From NCBI RefSeq assembly GCF_000828635.1, contig NZ_AP012547.1, positions 1,364,001 to 1,428,000 on the forward strand: a stretch of 64,000 nt of DNA. The letters are read 5' to 3'. This DNA comes from Sulfuritalea hydrogenivorans sk43H. GTDB taxonomy: Bacteria; Pseudomonadota; Gammaproteobacteria; Burkholderiales; Rhodocyclaceae. The notes under the pieces were generated by a model, which had not been told where the DNA came from, made no database searches, and was given only the letters and a program-made list of their open reading frames with translations. The translations under genes and the position numbers were made by a program. Below, in pieces: positions 22,511 through 29,721 of the stretch (the first letter of the stretch is position 1; each line of letters begins with the position of its first letter).

Positions 22511-23866
22511 ATGGCAAGAAAGTATTTCGGCACCGACGGTGTCCGCGGGCGCGTCGGCCAGGCGCCGATCACGCCGGATTTCATCATGCGCCTGGGCTAC
22601 GCGGCGGGTTCCGCGCTGGTGGCGCGCGATGGGCTGCCGGCCAACGAGCATCCGGCGGTGCTGATCGGCAAGGACACGCGCATTTCCGGCTACATGCTGG
22701 AGGCCGCGCTGGAGGCCGGATTTTCCGCGGCGGGTGTCGATGTGATGCTCTGCGGGCCGATGCCGACGCCGGCCGTGGCCTACCTCACCCGCGCCCTGCG
22801 CCTGCAGGCCGGCGTGGTGATTTCCGCCTCGCACAACCCCTACGACGACAACGGCATCAAGTTCTTCTCGGCGCAGGGCACCAAGCTGCCGGATGCGGTG
22901 GAACTCGACATCGAGGCGCGACTCGACCAGCCGATGACATGCATGCCTTCCGCCAGACTCGGCAAGGCGCGTCGCGTCGATGACGCCGCCGGGCGCTACA
23001 TCGAATTCTGCAAGAGCACCTTTCCCAACGACCTCGACCTGCGCGGCATGAAGATCGTGGTGGACAGCGCCCACGGCGCGGCCTATCACGTCGCCCCCAG
23101 CGTGTTCCACGAACTCGGCGCCGAGACAGTCGGCGTTGGCGATACGCCGAATGGCCTCAACATCAACCACGAAGTCGGCGCCACGGCACCCGAAGCGCTG
23201 CGCCGCGCCGTGCTGGAACATCGCGCCGACTGCGGCATCGCGCTGGACGGCGACGGCGACCGTCTGGTGATGGTCGACGCGGCGGGCCGGCTCTACGACG
23301 GCGACCAGTTGCTCTACGTGATTGCCCGCCACAGGGCGCGCAGCCAGTCCGTGCCTGGCGTTGCCGGCACGCTGATGAGCAACCTCGGTTTCGAGCATGC
23401 GCTGGGCCGGCTGGGCATCGCTGTCGGACGCGCCAAGGTCGGCGATCGCTATGTGCTGGAAATGATGCAGCAGAAGGGCTGGCAGCTTGGCGGCGAAAAC
23501 TCAGGCCACATCATCTGCCTGGACCGCCATACCACCGGCGACGGCATCATCGCGGCGCTGCAGGTGCTGGCTGCGCTGCGCGCCACCAGCGAGACTCTGG
23601 GCGAAGCCTGCGCCGATCTGAGCTTGTATCCGCAGAAGCTCATCAACGTCAGGATGCCCGCCGGTTTCGACTGGGCCGCCGCCGACGGCATCACGTCAGC
23701 GGTGAAATCCGCCGAGGCGATGCTCGACGGCAGCGGCCGCGTGCTGTTGCGCCCCTCCGGCACCGAGCCCCTGCTGCGGGTGATGGTCGAGGGACGCGAA
23801 GAAGCGCTGGTGCTCGGTCAGGCCGAGGCCATCGCAGGAGCAGTACGCCAGGCCTTCGGCCAGTAG
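22511..23866 (+). CDS. glmM: Phosphoglucosamine mutase
   Basis: Interconverts glucosamine-6-phosphate and glucosamine-1-phosphate for peptidoglycan and LPS precursors. It has 451 residues, typical of the family. It starts [13 protein letters not shown], has the phosphoserine loop [12 protein letters not shown] with catalytic Ser107, the metal loop DGDGDR, the sugar-binding GGENSGH and the C-terminal [12 protein letters not shown] phosphate site. ATG 22511 follows folP by one base. Confidence 0.97.
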
Positions 23867-23873
23867 AGCTGCA

Positions 23874-23891
23874 AGCCGGCAGACGCCGGCT
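23874..23891. terminator. Hairpin between convergent glmM and EAL-CBS-GGDEF genes
   Basis: AGCCGGC (23874-23880) and GCCGGCT (23885-23891) form a perfect 7-bp stem with an AGAC loop. It sits in the 23-bp convergent gap and reaches into the minus-strand stop codon. There is no T-tract on either side, so it is a weak bidirectional terminator at most. Confidence 0.45.
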
Positions 23892-25773
23892 ACATGGCAA
23901 AGCAGGGCATACCCGCAAGAAGATTCGGCGCTGGCAACACGGCGTCCATGCCGGGGCCTGCATCCGCCGTGCCGGCGCTGCCGCGATATTGGCGGCGTTC
24001 GATGAACAGCACGCTGCCCGGCAGGCGTTTGGCTTCCTTCTTTGCTTCGCTGAGGGCCGCCGATACATCGTGGTGGTTGGCGAAGGCGCCTGGCGGTACG
24101 ATCACGCAGCCGATCGACAGCGCCGGCAGCGCGTGGAAAATCGGCTGTCCGCGTCTGTCCTCGCCATAGTAGCCGCCCGCCGAAAGATGCTCGGCATTCG
24201 TCACATATTTTGGCAGCGTGGCGTCGAACTGCTCGATGACGCGTCGCAGCCGCGCTTCCCAGTCGCGACTTTGCATCAGTACGATGAAGTCGTCGCCGCC
24301 GACGTGGCCGACGAAGTCCTGGTGATCGGCGGTTGTTTCGCTAAGCAGCGCACCCACCTGCTGGATCATCTGGTCGCCGCGCCGGTAGCCATAGGTGTCG
24401 TTGTAGGGTTTGAAATGGTCAAGATCGCAGTAGGCGGCGACAAAGCCGTGCTCCGTCTCGATCAGTCGATCCATCTGTTCGTTGATGGGAACGTTGCCGG
24501 GAAGCTGGGTCAGGGGGTTGGCGTAGCGGGCGGCGCGAATCTGCATGTCGGTGATGATCGCCATCAGTTCCCGGAGGAAGCCGATGCCGCGATAGCGGCC
24601 CTGCCGTGTAATGATGATGGCATCACAGGCTTCGGTGCTGCGCAAGCTGCCGATAAGCTGCGCGACTTCCTGCGCGCTTTGCGCTTCATCGAACACCAGT
24701 GGCGGATCCATGACCATGGTGCAAGGCCGCTTGCCATGGAGTTCGCGGTGAAACGGACGGGCAAAGCGGTCGATCAGCGAATAGCGTGAAATGATCCCCA
24801 CCGGCTGGCCGTTGGCAACCACCGGTACGACATTGAGCCCCGGTTGATGCTCGAAGATGCGGTAGACGGCATCGTTGTCGGTTTCCGGAGAGACCGACCT
24901 CACCTCGTGCAGTATCTGGTCGATGCGTGGCGTCCGTCGGCCTGCTTGCGGGCGCAGCGGCAGCAGCAGAATGCTGTTGTTCATCGGTTGGTCGACGTTG
25001 GGCATGGTGGCAATGGCGCGCTGCGGACGGGCGATGCCGAAGCCCTGCAGGTAAGGAATGCCGATGTCGCGCAGCACCGCCAGTTGGCCTTCCGTTTCCA
25101 CGCCTTCGGCGATCAGGGCGCTGCCGCAAGCGTCGGCGATCTCGTGCATGGCGCGAACAAAATGCAGCTTGAGCGGATCGGTGTCGATGCCGGTGACAAA
25201 GTGGCGGTCGATCTTGACGAACTCCGGGCGCACCTCGGACCACATGCGCAGATTGGAAAAGCCTTCGCCCATGTCGTCCATGGCGATCTGGATGCCGATC
25301 CGGCGAAAGTCCTGCAAGGTTTCCTGCAGATCGGAGAAATCGGTCACCGATTCGTTTTCGGTCAGTTCGATGACGATTCTGGACGGCGGCACGCCAAGTC
25401 GAAGCAGCTCCTGGCGAATCGCAACCAGGCGTTTGCGGCTGGCGTGCAGGCAACTGATGCTCATGTTCAGAAAGAGCCGCAGCGCACACTGCTGCGCGGC
25501 GAACTGCACGATGGCGGTTTCCACCGCCAGCCATTCGAGTTCATGCGTGCAGTCGGCCGCGGCGGCGGCGGCGAACAAGGCACCCGGCGCATGCAGTTCC
25601 GAGCCTTCCGGGCCGCGAATCAGCGCCTCGCAGGCAAGGTAGTTTCCCTTGCGGACATCCAGGATGGGCTGGTACACGGAATGCAGGCCGCGATCACTCA
25701 TCAGGCGCCGCAGCGCGCCACCGTGGGGACTTGCGTCCTCGGTCATCTTGTTGCTTCGATTGTGCATGTTCAT
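23890..25773 (-). CDS. EAL-CBS-GGDEF c-di-GMP enzyme, output of a Sia-like module
   Basis: A soluble 627-residue protein. The EAL domain (about 24-255) keeps E49 (CEALIRG), LNMS (102-105), E136 in ELTENE, DD 166-167 and E223 in AEGVET. A CBS-like pair follows (about 290-405), containing FARPFHRELHGKRPC (337-351). The C-terminal GGDEF domain (about 415-600) has the plausible active motif GGDDF (492-496) but DHQD instead of the inhibitory RxxD. Both halves could be active. ATG 25773 (GAGAGG upstream) is preferred over 25860, which would overlap the preceding gene. In Pseudomonas the fourth Sia gene is a diguanylate cyclase, SiaD, with different domains. Confidence 0.88.
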   Translation of the reverse strand: MNMHNRSNKMTEDASPHGGALRRLMSDRGLHSVYQPILDVRKGNYLACEALIRGPEGSELHAPGALFAAAAAADCTHELEWLAVETAIVQFAAQQCALRLFLNMSISCLHASRKRLVAIRQELLRLGVPPSRIVIELTENESVTDFSDLQETLQDFRRIGIQIAMDDMGEGFSNLRMWSEVRPEFVKIDRHFVTGIDTDPLKLHFVRAMHEIADACGSALIAEGVETEGQLAVLRDIGIPYLQGFGIARPQRAIATMPNVDQPMNNSILLLPLRPQAGRRTPRIDQILHEVRSVSPETDNDAVYRIFEHQPGLNVVPVVANGQPVGIISRYSLIDRFARPFHRELHGKRPCTMVMDPPLVFDEAQSAQEVAQLIGSLRSTEACDAIIITRQGRYRGIGFLRELMAIITDMQIRAARYANPLTQLPGNVPINEQMDRLIETEHGFVAAYCDLDHFKPYNDTYGYRRGDQMIQQVGALLSETTADHQDFVGHVGGDDFIVLMQSRDWEARLRRVIEQFDATLPKYVTNAEHLSAGGYYGEDRRGQPIFHALPALSIGCVIVPPGAFANHHDVSAALSEAKKEAKRLPGSVLFIERRQYRGSAGTADAGPGMDAVLPAPNLLAGMPCFAM

Positions 25774-25840
25774 GCTGTCTTGACCTCTCTTTGGGGCTTT
25801 CGCCGATTCCGGTCTTGCCTCGGGTCCTGCACGGTTGATG

Positions 25841-26233
25841 TCAGGCCGGTTCGACAACAACCGTGCTGAACTTCAGCGAGCGGTGTTCTTCCTTCAGGTC
25901 GATGCCGAACTCCAGCATCATGTCGTCGTCTTCGTCATGCAGCCAGTCGACCGAGATCGAAGGCCCGTTTTCAGCCGCCTTGTCGAGCATGCCGACAAGG
26001 GCGCGAATCAGCTTGGTGCTGGAACTGTTGAAGTAGCGCAGGCCGATGCCGACCTCGATCCGGCTGTCGGCGGGAACCTGGTCCAGGTAGCTCTGGAGGC
26101 TCGCCCGGACCGGGCCGTAGAAGCTCATCGCATTCTCCGGATAGGACTCGCCATGCATGCTGAGGCGATGGCGGGAAAACTCGAACCTGATTTCCGGCGT
26201 TTCATTGCTGGCAGGGATATGCAGATCTTCCAT
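25841..26233 (-). CDS. SiaC-family regulatory phosphoprotein (DUF1987)
   Basis: A 130-residue protein of the DUF1987 family. In Pseudomonas SiaC is phosphorylated by SiaB, dephosphorylated by SiaA, and activates the cyclase SiaD when unphosphorylated. The family phrases are visible: TPEIRFEF, MHGESYPENAMSFYGP and LRYFNSSSTKLI. The residue in the position of the known phospho-threonine of the NTSS motif is Ser70 here. It lies 67 bp upstream of the EAL-CBS-GGDEF gene and 43 bp downstream of the kinase gene. Confidence 0.85.
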   Translation of the reverse strand: MEDLHIPASNETPEIRFEFSRHRLSMHGESYPENAMSFYGPVRASLQSYLDQVPADSRIEVGIGLRYFNSSSTKLIRALVGMLDKAAENGPSISVDWLHDEDDDMMLEFGIDLKEEHRSLKFSTVVVEPA

Positions 26234-26276
26234 GGCTCATTTCTCCTGTGGTGCGGTTATTCGTTGCGGACGCGGA

Positions 26277-26846
26277 TCAGATGGTGGCGCGCAGGTAAAG
26301 ATCGGCGCGGCCGTTTTCGGCCTTGCTGGCATAGGCAATGCTGTATTCGATCGGCTCGGTGGCATCGCGCGCCATGGTCAGGAAGCCGAGGCCGGCGCCC
26401 TTGCTTGATGTATCGCCGGCGTGGCCATCGTTGCGCAGTTGTTCCCGGTAGGCGGCTTTGATTTCCTCGATGCTCATCTGGCGCAAGGGCTCAAGCTTCT
26501 CGTGCAGCCGCGAAACATCCTCCATGCGCACCGGATTGCCGCAGACGACAAAGAACTTTTCGTTGTCATTGCGGCCGACGGCGAGGGCGCCATAGCCGGC
26601 CGGACAGCCGGCGCCGCCGGTTTCCGGGGTTTCCGGGGCGTAGTGCAGGATGTTCTGCGCCATTTCGATGAAGGTGGAAAACACCTTGCGGCGCGCGGTG
26701 CCGCTCGCGTTGACGCTGTCGAGGCGCTGCCTGAGCGTATCGCCGATGGCGGCGACGATATTCTGCGAGAACATGCCGGTGTAGTAGAAGATCACGCCAT
26801 TCTCGGTGGCGGTGGTGCGAAAGGCATTGAACAGATCGAGTTTCAT
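26277..26846 (-). CDS. SiaB-family (DUF6272) protein kinase
   Basis: A 189-residue protein resembling SiaB, the kinase that phosphorylates SiaC. It shows a GHKL-like layout: FIEMAQNILHYAPE (N-box-like, with the Asn near residue 65) and SSKGAGLGFLTMARD (G-box GxGLG near 152). The central region ends with SIAYASKAENGRADLYL. It sits between the phosphatase (14 bp) and the phosphoprotein gene, as in siaABCD operons. The substrate is inferred from context. Confidence 0.83.
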   Translation of the reverse strand: MKLDLFNAFRTTATENGVIFYYTGMFSQNIVAAIGDTLRQRLDSVNASGTARRKVFSTFIEMAQNILHYAPETPETGGAGCPAGYGALAVGRNDNEKFFVVCGNPVRMEDVSRLHEKLEPLRQMSIEEIKAAYREQLRNDGHAGDTSSKGAGLGFLTMARDATEPIEYSIAYASKAENGRADLYLRATI

Positions 26847-26860
26847 GATCGATGCCGCGC

Positions 26861-28135
26861 TTAGAGGCGAAAGCCGATAAGGCCGACGTCGTCGCGACGC
26901 GTTTCGGTGCCTTGATAGTCCTCAAGAGCCTTGAGGACTACCGCGCGCAAAGGCGCCAGGGCCGAGGCATTGCGGTGCTCGGCCAGCAGGGCGCACAAGC
27001 GCTTTTTGCCGAAGGCAATGCGCTTCGGGCCGCCGGGCTGATCGACCAGTCCGTCCGTGGCGAGGAACACCGCCGTACCCGGTGGTACCGGATGGCAATG
27101 GTTTTGCCAGGTCTGGTCCATCGGCGTCGAGGCGTAGCCGACTCCGGCTCGATCGCCTTCGATCAGCTCGATGTCCTCGCCGGGACGCAGCAGGATCAGC
27201 GGCGAATGGGCGCCTGCGTAGATGATCCTGCGCTCGGCCGTCGCCACCCAGCAGAAGGCCGCGTCCATGCCGTCGTCCGAGCGGTGTTCGAGTTCGTCAT
27301 TGCTCGCCGCGCTCTTGTGGCTATGATCGATTTGTCCGAGGGCGCTCTTGACGCGCTGGTTTACCTCGGCCATCACCGCCGCCGGATCATGCCGGTTCTC
27401 GTTGGTGAGGGCGTGGTCGATGAAGGAAGCCATGATCAGCGTCATGAAGGCGCCGGGGACGCCGTGGCCGGTGCAGTCGAACAGGGTCAGGAAGAAACCG
27501 TCGTCGAAGCGGCGGCAATAGAAGTAGTCGCCGCCCACCAGGTCGCGCGGCTCCCACAGCAGGAGGTGATCCGGCAGTTGCGAACGCAATGCCTCGCGCG
27601 ACGGCCGCAGGAAGGAGCGCTGGATGACGCTGGCGTAGTCAATGCTTTCCATCACGATGCGGTTCTTCTCCGCCTGCAGTCCGGCGATGGCGCGGACCAG
27701 ATCCTGCCCGGTGCCCATGCCGGCGTAACGGCCGTCGATCGTGATCACGAAGCCGTCATTGAGTGTCTTGCCACCCTTTTCCACGACGCGGAAGCTCAGG
27801 TCCTGGATGCTCATCCCGCCATCGACGATCAGCGGCTGCTTGTCCATGAAGGCAATGCAGCTCTTGCGTCCGTATACCTCGCGATGAAACGGTCGGGCAA
27901 AGGAATCCATGAAAATGTTGCGGTTGATCAGGCCGATAGGCCTGTCGTCTTCCGTCACCGGCAGCGCCGACAGATTCGGTGCCGAGTCGAAGATGCCGAA
28001 TACCTCGTCGTTGGTCTGGTTCGGCGACGCAGCAGGAAGGGGAAGCAGCAGACTGGCCGTCAGGGCGTTCTGACGGGATGACGCCGCGTTTGCGGTTGAT
28101 GCGGGATGCAAGGCGGCCAAGGCGAGCGCGGACAT
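26861..28135 (-). CDS. CBS-PP2C (SpoIIE-type) serine/threonine phosphatase
   Basis: A soluble 424-residue protein. The N-terminal CBS-like segment (about 43-150) contains FARPFHREVYGRKSC (79-93), closely matching the same segment in the EAL-CBS-GGDEF protein of this operon. A SpoIIE-type phosphatase domain follows (about 160-424), with metal-binding GGDYF (201-205), DCTGHGVPGA (220-229), the ATDGL and RRDDVGL motifs. Known SiaA phosphatases carry a membrane HAMP sensor instead. ATG 28135 has a CCGGAG Shine-Dalgarno. It is the first large gene of the operon. Confidence 0.87.
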   Translation of the reverse strand: MSALALAALHPASTANAASSRQNALTASLLLPLPAASPNQTNDEVFGIFDSAPNLSALPVTEDDRPIGLINRNIFMDSFARPFHREVYGRKSCIAFMDKQPLIVDGGMSIQDLSFRVVEKGGKTLNDGFVITIDGRYAGMGTGQDLVRAIAGLQAEKNRIVMESIDYASVIQRSFLRPSREALRSQLPDHLLLWEPRDLVGGDYFYCRRFDDGFFLTLFDCTGHGVPGAFMTLIMASFIDHALTNENRHDPAAVMAEVNQRVKSALGQIDHSHKSAASNDELEHRSDDGMDAAFCWVATAERRIIYAGAHSPLILLRPGEDIELIEGDRAGVGYASTPMDQTWQNHCHPVPPGTAVFLATDGLVDQPGGPKRIAFGKKRLCALLAEHRNASALAPLRAVVLKALEDYQGTETRRDDVGLIGFRL

Positions 28136-28267
28136 GGGGAACTCCGGAGGAATGTTGATGCGAACGTCTAGCCTAGGGTTCGATTGTTACGCTTCGATCA
28201 CCGAATTGTTGCGTCGCAATGGCTGCATGGCGACGTTGTTGTCCGTCGTCGATGCGCCGCGTGCTGG

Positions 28268-28402
28268 CTACGCCGCCGATCGCGGGCGTGAACTCGATCG
28301 GCGGGCCCGATGCAGGGCGATCAACTCGACGATGCCCCAGAGCAGGGCGCTGCCGATGGCCATTGCCGGATGTGCAATCGTCCTGCGCAAGGTCGGATCC
28401 AT
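28268..28402 (-). CDS. Possible small membrane protein (44 aa)
   Basis: ATG 28402 to TAG 28268 encodes 44 residues. It has a charged start (MDPTLRRTIAHP), one hydrophobic helix (AMAIGSALLWGIVELIAL, about 13-30) and a basic tail (RARRSSSRPR). Third codon positions are strongly GC, like real genes here, and a GGGA lies 9 nt upstream. It reads in the same direction as the Sia-like operon, 132 bp upstream of its first gene. No function is known. Confidence 0.5.
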   Translation of the reverse strand: MDPTLRRTIAHPAMAIGSALLWGIVELIALHRARRSSSRPRSAA

Positions 28403-28417
28403 GGAAATTCCCGTGAG

Positions 28418-28534
28418 TCAGAGGCCGTCGGGCAGCCACAGGCTTATCAAGCCGTTCTCGAAGAGCCTGTTGATCGCGCTCTGCAGGTCAAGCAGATTCA
28501 GTGCAAATGCCCTCGGTACTGGTGTCAGCGTCAT
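28418..28534 (-). CDS. Possible small protein (38 aa)
   Basis: ATG 28534 to TGA 28418 encodes 38 residues ending in an amphipathic-looking stretch (LDLQSAINRLFENGLISLWL) and the tail PDGL. It lies 15 bp upstream of the 44-residue frame, in the same direction. Its Shine-Dalgarno (GGATGG, 3 nt away) is poor. The protein-like composition and tandem placement are the only support. Confidence 0.35.
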   Translation of the reverse strand: MTLTPVPRAFALNLLDLQSAINRLFENGLISLWLPDGL

Positions 28535-28689
28535 GGTCCATCCGGTTTCGGCAGGGAATTCGGGCAGCCTAGCAGCGCGAGGTTAAGAATCCGTTGCAGG
28601 TTTGCGACAGTTGCGTGCGCGCAGTGTCATGCATTTGTCACATTGGCGGACGCCCGGCCGGGGTATCCTTGGCGCTGCCCGGGTTTTGA

Positions 28690-29721
28690 ATGAATGCCGT
28701 GTCCACACACAAACTGGCCGAACTGAACGAACTGGAAAGCATCATCGAGGAGGGCGCCCCCTATCTCGCGGCACGTGTAGTTTGCGAGGTGGCGAGCGAC
28801 GCACGACGCTTCCCCGTTTATGCCATCTGCCTCGGCAATCCGGACCCCGGGGTACCCGCCGTCGGCTTTTTCGGCGGGGTGCATGGCCTCGAACGCATCG
28901 GCGCCGAAGTTGTGCTGGCCTATTTGCGCAGCCTGGTGGCGCGCCTGCGCTGGGACAGCGTACTGCACCGCGAACTGGAATCGGTGCGCCTCGTTTTCAT
29001 GCCCATCGTCAATCCGGGCGGCATGTGGCGCGGCACGCGCGCCAATCCGAACGGTGTTGACCTGATGCGCAATGCGCCGCTGGAGTCGACCGAACGCGTG
29101 CCCTTCCTGATCGGCGGCCAGCGCATCAGCTCCGGCCTGCCCTGGTACCAGGGACCGCGCGGCGGGCCGATGGAGGCCGAAAGCCAGGCGGTGTGCCGCA
29201 TCGTCGAAGAGGAACTGCTGCTACGCCAGTTCAGCCTTGCCCTCGACTGCCATTCCGGTTTCGGCCTGCACGATCGCCTCTGGTTTCCCCATGCCCACAC
29301 CATGCTGCCGATCGAGCACTTGCCCGAAATGCATGCCCTGATGGAAATCTTCGATCAGACCTATGCCAACCACAGTTATCTGTTCGAGCCGCAAAGCCGC
29401 CAATACCTGACTCATGGTGACCTCTGGGACTACCTGTACCTGCAGGCAGAGCATTCCGGCCGCGTCTTTCTCCCGCTCACCCTGGAAATGGGTTCGTGGC
29501 TCTGGGTGAAGAAGAATCCGCGCCAGCTGTTTTCGCGTCACGGCATTTTCAATCCCCTGATCGTGCATCGCCAGCAGCGCGTGCTGCGGCGGCATCTGTC
29601 GTGGCTCGAGTTTCTCGCCCGCGCCGCCAGCGGCTATCAGCGCTGGCTTCCCTCCGGCGCGGCGCGCATGCAGCATCGCGAGCAAGCCCTGTCACTCTGG
29701 TACCGCAGCAGCGGCGCATGA
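28690..29721 (+). CDS. M14-family zinc carboxypeptidase/deacylase
   Basis: A 343-residue cytoplasmic hydrolase of the carboxypeptidase A/succinylglutamate-desuccinylase fold. The zinc ligands are visible: H65 and E68 (GGVHGLERIG) and H188 (DCHSGFGLHD). The catalytic Glu is E266 (LTLEMGSW). NPGGMWRGTRANPNGVDLMRN is the substrate-side region. No signal peptide is seen. The substrate is unknown. The stop overlaps the next ATG as ATGA, so the two proteins are likely made together. Confidence 0.85.
   Translation: MNAVSTHKLAELNELESIIEEGAPYLAARVVCEVASDARRFPVYAICLGNPDPGVPAVGFFGGVHGLERIGAEVVLAYLRSLVARLRWDSVLHRELESVRLVFMPIVNPGGMWRGTRANPNGVDLMRNAPLESTERVPFLIGGQRISSGLPWYQGPRGGPMEAESQAVCRIVEEELLLRQFSLALDCHSGFGLHDRLWFPHAHTMLPIEHLPEMHALMEIFDQTYANHSYLFEPQSRQYLTHGDLWDYLYLQAEHSGRVFLPLTLEMGSWLWVKKNPRQLFSRHGIFNPLIVHRQQRVLRRHLSWLEFLARAASGYQRWLPSGAARMQHREQALSLWYRSSGA

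Follow-up and report, generated by a model that had tools for sequence, protein, structure and literature searches.

The window analysed here is a 64,000-nucleotide stretch of the genome of Sulfuritalea hydrogenivorans sk43H (contig NZ_AP012547.1, positions 1,364,001 to 1,428,000). Within it lie four adjacent genes, here called A to D, that combine a predicted Sia-type partner switch (A, B and C) with a predicted enzyme of cyclic di-GMP (c-di-GMP) metabolism (D). The list of open reading frames (ORFs) confirmed all four on the minus strand within positions 23890-28135, with intergenic gaps of 14 bp (A-B), 43 bp (B-C) and 67 bp (C-D). The ORF of D spans 23890-25860; its likely start is the ATG at 25773, which agrees with the N-termini of relatives. 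The main features are as follows.

26861..28135, minus strand: A, CBS-PP2C phosphatase of SiaA type, 424 aa (ORF)
27659..28081, minus strand: CBS (Bateman) segment of A, residues 19-159 (Pfam, BLASTP, alignment, AlphaFold2)
27578..27709, minus strand: predicted long helix spanning residues 143-186 of A, between its CBS and PP2C domains (AlphaFold2, predicted local confidence (pLDDT) of the block 74-90)
26277..26846, minus strand: B, SiaB-family kinase, 189 aa, with FIEM (residues 59-62) aligned to YIEM of SiaB
25841..26233, minus strand: C, SiaC phosphoprotein, 130 aa (Pfam, alignment)
26024..26026, minus strand: Ser70 codon of SiaC, aligned to the phosphosite Thr68 of Pseudomonas aeruginosa SiaC
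23890..25773, minus strand: D, EAL-CBS-GGDEF protein from its likely ATG at 25773 (ORF opens at 25860)
24526..24945, minus strand: CBS (Bateman) segment of D, residues 306-445 when numbered from 25860 (BLASTP, structure model)

In A, Pfam detected a CBS domain (32.9 bits, cut-off 24) and a SpoIIE/PP2C domain (78, cut-off 25). The metal-binding Asp residues of a SiaA-type PP2C are present, as D203, D220, D361 and D415 were kept in the alignment with P. aeruginosa SiaA-PP2C. In P. aeruginosa, SiaA takes its input through a membrane region; the full-length SiaA equivalog model NF038263 scored 198.2 on A against a cut-off of 700 and matched at profile positions 395-657 only. No transmembrane-like stretch was found in A or D, the highest 19-residue Kyte-Doolittle means being 1.3 and 1.6, respectively. 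The AlphaFold2 model of A showed a CBS-pair pattern, the helix at 143-186 and the PP2C domain. Matches in a structure search with A were filled by PP2C, and the search is thus informative on that half only.

B was assigned to DUF6272 by Pfam and to SiaB_fam_kinase (NF038262) by NCBIfam (176.3, cut-off 85), and it keeps the SiaB glutamate in the alignment with 6kko_A; the narrower kinase_SiaB model scored 108.2, below its cut-off of 225. C matched the SiaC family PF09345 at 125.7 (cut-off 24.5) and the narrow phos_prot_SiaC model at 76.8, below its cut-off of 150. N69-S70 of C aligned to N67-T68 of P. aeruginosa SiaC, which points to a putative Ser phosphosite, and Ser stood at this position in all 55 distinct SiaC frames of the retrieved loci. 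The strain's own genome (3.80 Mb, one contig) contains one SiaC above the family cut-off. A-B-C is thus supported as a predicted partner switch of the Sia type whose CBS input is cytosolic. The sequence-only reading had matched the four genes to siaABCD, with a cytosolic CBS segment replacing the membrane input of SiaA: the identities and order of A, B and C held, as did the replaced input, but the equation of D with SiaD did not.

D carries EAL (163.2), CBS (30.7, cut-off 24) and GGDEF (65.2) domains by Pfam, which bears out the EAL-CBS-GGDEF assignment made for the fourth gene, and this domain order is that of RapA and PA3258. At the EAL positions checked, which we take to be the catalytic ones, all residues were conserved. 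The GGDEF motif reads GGDDF in all 66 D proteins with letters there, the window protein included, and the inhibitory-site Arg is absent from D. Published EAL-CBS-GGDEF members include PA3258 and its homologue RapA, a phosphodiesterase that depletes c-di-GMP (PMC12900916, PMC3032545), and DdpB of Bordetella, which has GGDDF and whose EAL motif is said to read ESL (PMC12805831). From the intact EAL domain, the GGDDF motif, the missing inhibitory Arg and the published members, D is therefore expected to be a phosphodiesterase, and the output would then have the opposite sign to that of a usual Sia module. As side observations, one D orthologue (L137, in G300) has two in-frame deletions in its GGDEF domain, with EAL and CBS kept; a Pseudomonas genome with a CBS-SiaA (L050, G547) carries an unlinked CBS-family frame of 617 aa; and the whole genome G000 gave 46 SiaD/GGDEF profile matches at E <=1e-5, a large c-di-GMP repertoire for 3.8 Mb.

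The stalk of SiaD has two motifs to which SiaC binds, around S50/Q54 and S82/Q86 (PMC8457831). One SiaD-like neighbour from the retrieved loci aligned with SiaD 7e6g through ISDR, and R, LI and SDR were invariant in 14 rows. A profile was built from 20 SiaD-like stalks, a strong match being one with E below 1e-20. Against the frames of the loci retrieved at that stage it returned 22 rows at E <=2e-26, including its 20 own training rows and one duplicate locus, and at E up to 10 it matched no EAL-CBS-GGDEF frame, D included. Within the strain's own genome the best match had an E of 0.58, and no stalk protein was found. Judged from its sequence, D is not a SiaD: it is without the SiaC-binding stalk, and close orthologues occur without A-B-C.

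Strong stalk matches were present in 18 of the 43 other CBS-SiaABC genomes and in none of 23 chosen controls without A-B-C, while weak ones (6e-8 to 9e-4) occurred in both sets, including one to a class III cyclase next to SiaC in L081. The other 25 of the 43, and the own genome, have SiaC and no strong stalk match (some assemblies are incomplete), so SiaC probably has further partners beyond the known stalk; enzymes adjoining the switch are the candidates to consider first. Of another eight genomes, which were reached through named loci, three had a strong match (the Leeia genome among the eight is G061 again). The four other genomes with D directly beside A-B-C (G187, G333, G387 and G540) gave no strong match; G333 gave weak ones at 3.6e-5 and 5.2e-4. 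A genome-wide swap of SiaD for D was unsupported, as a further CBS-family match was found, among the matches listed, in 19 of 25 genomes without and 14 or 15 of 18 with a strong stalk. Separately, in one locus (L081:7562-8617) SiaC and a divergent CBS-PP2C flank a class III adenylate/guanylate cyclase; part of the SiaC-binding stalk motif is recognisable in this enzyme (E 2e-8), which makes it a possible Sia-controlled nucleotide cyclase.

We compared the two CBS segments directly. BLASTP aligned A19-159 with D306-445 at 47/141 identical (33%) and 77/141 positive residues, with one gap and an E of 2e-24; the homology therefore extends well past the FARPFHRE phrase named in the sequence-only reading, and a CBS profile and fold were found in both proteins (Pfam, predicted structures). 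The phrase does lie within the homologous segments, but its His in D is found in none of the seven close D proteins, which read FARPFRRE or FALPFRRE. At E up to 1, A and D were the only matches to the CBS family in the own genome. When 58 phosphatase and 68 EAL-CBS-GGDEF segments were aligned, 29 columns had the same residue in >=70% of both families, and a Cys (A93/D380) was near-invariant (55/55 A, 66/68 D). A RELYGKK-like stretch was common to the whole family, histidine-kinase copies included. The family also occurs on histidine kinases (L080, L082, L100, L101, L139 and L153; kinase outputs assigned by eye), where the signature Cys is replaced in L080, L082 and L100, and on one CBS-GGDEF-EAL protein (L108). 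Given these other outputs, the phrase marks a portable sensor family and not a private bond between A and D.

In a tree of 133 CBS segments over 135 columns, in which many forks were weak, 56 of the 58 phosphatase segments formed one group (support 98), and all 68 EAL-CBS-GGDEF segments and one CBS-GGDEF-EAL segment formed another (90). The two stray phosphatase rows were L081, on a very long branch, and L102, among the kinase copies. The idea that one gene recently received its CBS segment as a copy from the other was rejected, as A-type and D-type segments separate in the tree. Identity between the window segments was 34.8%, and 96% of other D proteins matched A equally well or better (mean 40.8%). 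Across eight linked pairs, with L075, L081 and L102 excluded on the A side, identities were 34.1-41.0%, and other D proteins matched A equally or better in 43-96% of comparisons; there was no sign that linked sensors had been co-tuned.

CBS domains bind adenylate through a canonical ribose motif, [ST]xxD. In the second CBS of A this site reads T142/D145, and in D it reads F428/E431. Using the D segment model (pLDDT 82.1), the best matches in the PDB were AcuB structures solved with AMP, ADP, ATP or Ap4A (best E 2.1e-9, template modelling score by query 0.57, 17% identity). According to a review, AMP, ATP or S-adenosylmethionine are the presumed ligands of CBS domains in c-di-GMP proteins, and these domains are placed there among those whose roles are not validated (PMC8846402). 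That a single cytosolic ligand sets both A and D, as the sequence-only reading had proposed, is possible, but it drew no specific support, and the separate tree groups, the identity below the mean for other D proteins and the differing residues at the ribose site are some evidence against it.

We then surveyed 300 genomes of the order and 249 of the family; loci were retrieved only for matches with frames of suitable length, and the order counts apply among the matches listed. A CBS-family match was found in 119 of the 300 order genomes, and a CBS-PP2C protein (A) in at least 29, among the stretches retrieved. The family sample gave a CBS-family match in 121 of 249 genomes and CBS-PP2C with SiaB in 17, the own genome included. 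A contig scan yielded 17 loci, including ones from Methylobacillus, Methylotenera, Leeia, Novimethylophilus, Thauera and Pelomonas, and also from Pantoea dispersa, Pseudomonas, a Halothiobacillus and a Methylococcaceae metagenome-assembled genome. A protein search of plasmids gave 127 records with a match, 10 of which cover >=80% of A; a near DNA search of plasmids with the locus gave no match.

For a tree of A-B-C we used 57 loci, after dropping L081, L102 and four duplicate loci. A SiaD-like GGDEF gene lies downstream in 17 and upstream in 4, D lies directly downstream in 3 and upstream in 4, and an HD-domain gene lies downstream in 4, whereas 25 have none of these labels, a contig end truncating part of these loci. 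L087 was counted under SiaD although D probably also lies there, beyond glmM. CBS-SiaABC is a widespread Sia variant, mostly found beside an ordinary stalked SiaD or beside no c-di-GMP enzyme. No neighbour family that could be a different fixed partner was found to recur in most of the loci without SiaD.

Two neighbour families were seen repeatedly. The HD-domain family recurs in four loci ordered A-C-B, followed by an HD_5 protein and a release-factor-3-like gene (L076:10987-12120, with the same family in L077, L078 and L079; Pfam was run on one example); HD_5 we take to be the Pfam family of HD-GYP phosphodiesterases. These four genomes have no strong SiaD stalk match and, among the matches listed, no second CBS-family match. 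In six loci, CBS-SiaABC has a gene of one methyl-accepting chemotaxis family nearby (L036:10505-12181, also L041 and L059; Pfam on the L036 copy only).

Homologues of the two proteins co-occur, as the sequence-only reading required: a further CBS-family match was listed in 23 of 29 A-bearing order genomes, compared with no more than 90 of the 271 without A (Fisher p 1.9e-6, with kinship ignored and one of the 23, G158, taken from the match count alone). A and D lay within 5 kb of each other in 5 of the 34 sampled genomes with both, where 0.12 would be expected under random placement. Since these five represent two or three lineages, the lineage-level tail is the fairer figure (simulated at 0.006 for two and 0.0003 for three). 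In Novimethylophilus, D lies 3.6 kb upstream of A on the same strand, with the CBS segments 2.4 kb apart; in Methylobacillus the distance is 8 kb, on opposite strands. Three lineages or more show A-D linkage, which exceeds what chance would give.

The history of the locus was traced in relatives, for which two further features of the window are needed.

25795..28300, minus strand: approximate A-B-C block, missing at the corresponding site of congeners in which D is retained
28268..28402, minus strand: short ORF, 44 aa (by eye), upstream of A, with a congener counterpart directly upstream of D

Among the matches listed, none of eight other genomes of the genus has a CBS-SiaA, and five have some CBS-family match. 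Three of these congeners (G300, G362 and G533) have FtsH, FolP, GlmM, D and a peptidase in order without A-B-C, and their D orthologues, beside glmM, have CBS segments 76-81% identical to that of D. DNA comparison placed the missing block of ~2.5 kb just before the start of D, and the counterpart of the short ORF, which has a hydrophobic core, lies directly upstream of D in the congeners (2/3 by blastn, 3/3 by translation). G187 has the same A-B-C-D order beside GlmM. In G454, FolP and FtsH flank A-B-C, and D is on the far side of GlmM; G380 is seemingly alike, except that a SiaD-like gene precedes A, provided that its two contigs join within D, as the sequences at the contig ends indicate. 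In G333 and G387, D lies directly upstream of A, and no ftsH-folP-glmM-neighbour match was found in the retrieved stretch. The three loci with D directly downstream (own genome, L035 and G187) formed one clade in the A-B-C tree (98), and in the CBS tree the own D grouped with congeners without A-B-C and with L035 (99). A move of the four-gene block to a new place in L035 was dropped, as glmM is on the same contig ~7 kb from D and only nearer neighbours differ.

Our preferred model, to which we give about an even chance of being right, is that A-B-C acts as a cytosolic-input switch and D as a RapA-type phosphodiesterase with its own CBS sensor, the two joined by shared expression. The CBS pair of A would bind a ligand, most probably an adenine nucleotide or a comparable metabolite; the signal would travel down the long helix and set the PP2C domain, whose state would set the amount of SiaC phosphorylated at Ser70, with SiaB restoring the phosphate. 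D may be a RapA-type c-di-GMP phosphodiesterase with an anciently diverged CBS sensor of its own, probably co-transcribed with A-B-C yet able to act without them. Two CBS-gated inputs would thus be coupled to c-di-GMP by shared expression, not by a demonstrated SiaC-D contact or common ligand. A functional A-D pairing is plausible, and the independence of D is supported by the missing stalk and by the orthologues near glmM without A-B-C in three congeners. Promoter and terminator scans of 23600-29000 gave counts close to those of shuffled sequence (2 vs 1.0 and 5 vs 4.6, respectively) and speak neither for nor against shared expression. Several points weigh against this model. The ligand may not be adenylate, so sparse is the [ST]xxD motif: of the A proteins only 20 of 55 carry it at CBS2, of the D proteins only 29 of 68, and neither window protein has it at CBS1. 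The predicted direction of D activity is drawn from residue conservation and from published relatives. Finally, SiaC of the own genome must have a partner, and none was found by the stalk profile, which leaves room for D.

It is somewhat unlikely, in our judgement, that D is merely an old resident of the ftsH-folP-glmM neighbourhood beside which A-B-C lies without regulatory meaning. The conserved gene order in the three congeners, the boundaries of the absent ~2.5 kb block and the lack of excess CBS similarity in linked pairs all fit such a chance adjacency, as does the fact that in 29 of the 34 genomes with both proteins the retrieved stretch shows no D less than 5 kb from A (G380, one of the 29, probably has one across a contig end). 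However, the five linked genomes far exceed the random expectation and represent two or three lineages, Novimethylophilus and Methylobacillus add linked cases, and the three loci with D directly downstream form a single A-B-C clade. A tighter, two-armed circuit, in which SiaC would bind D in a phosphorylation-dependent manner and the same cytosolic ligand would set A and D, is unlikely. The homology of the CBS pairs, with its 29 shared columns and near-invariant Cys, is consistent with it, and so is the lack of a strong stalk match in the own genome, G187, G333 (weak matches), G387 and G540. Yet no EAL-CBS-GGDEF frame examined has a stalk motif, close D orthologues occur without A-B-C, the CBS segments fall in separate tree groups and differ at the ribose site, 21 of the 43 other CBS-SiaABC genomes have neither a strong stalk match nor a D within 5 kb, and a further CBS-family match is about as common without as with a strong stalk. 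A broader proposal would have SiaC exchange its stalked SiaD for other clients, namely the RapA-type EAL-CBS-GGDEF protein here, the HD phosphodiesterase in the A-C-B loci and the class III cyclase of L081, with switch and client reading one metabolite through sister sensors in a two-armed c-di-GMP circuit. This we consider improbable.

The locus is genuine and well ordered, and it represents a form of a known system that has apparently gone undescribed: a CBS-input SiaABC beside an enzyme of RapA type whose sensor is related. In the accessible text of the open-licence PubMed Central literature, no account of a CBS-type Sia module was found. That the sequence-only reading knew of no such module fits this result, but CBS-SiaA is common in genomes and the CBS family serves other outputs. 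As a soluble protein, CBS-SiaA would be a purifiable phosphatase whose input ligand could be screened directly, which is harder for membrane-bound SiaA.

Compared with known systems, the modelled fold of the CBS segment of D resembles that of AcuB and other adenine-nucleotide CBS-pair proteins, whereas the ribose motif is absent in D and present in one half of the pair in A only. The CBS-histidine kinases and the CBS-GGDEF-EAL protein share the CBS family and its RELYGKK-like signature but have other outputs. RapA (P. fluorescens), PA3258 (P. aeruginosa) and DdpB have the domain set of D, a likeness drawn from their descriptions, not from sequence. DdpB also shares GGDDF, while the EAL motif is intact in D. 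In the accessible parts of their sources, none of the three is described beside SiaABC, whereas D adjoins A-B-C. The closest counterpart of the locus is SiaABCD of P. aeruginosa, in which a PP2C phosphatase, the SiaB kinase and the SiaC phosphoprotein stand in the same order (PMC7647112, PMC8457831), the catalytic residues of the window proteins align with 6k4e and 6kko, and the fourth gene also encodes a c-di-GMP enzyme. The window locus differs in having a CBS pair instead of a membrane input in A, Ser where Thr68 stands in SiaC and, as its fourth gene, an EAL-CBS-GGDEF protein without the SiaC-binding stalk.

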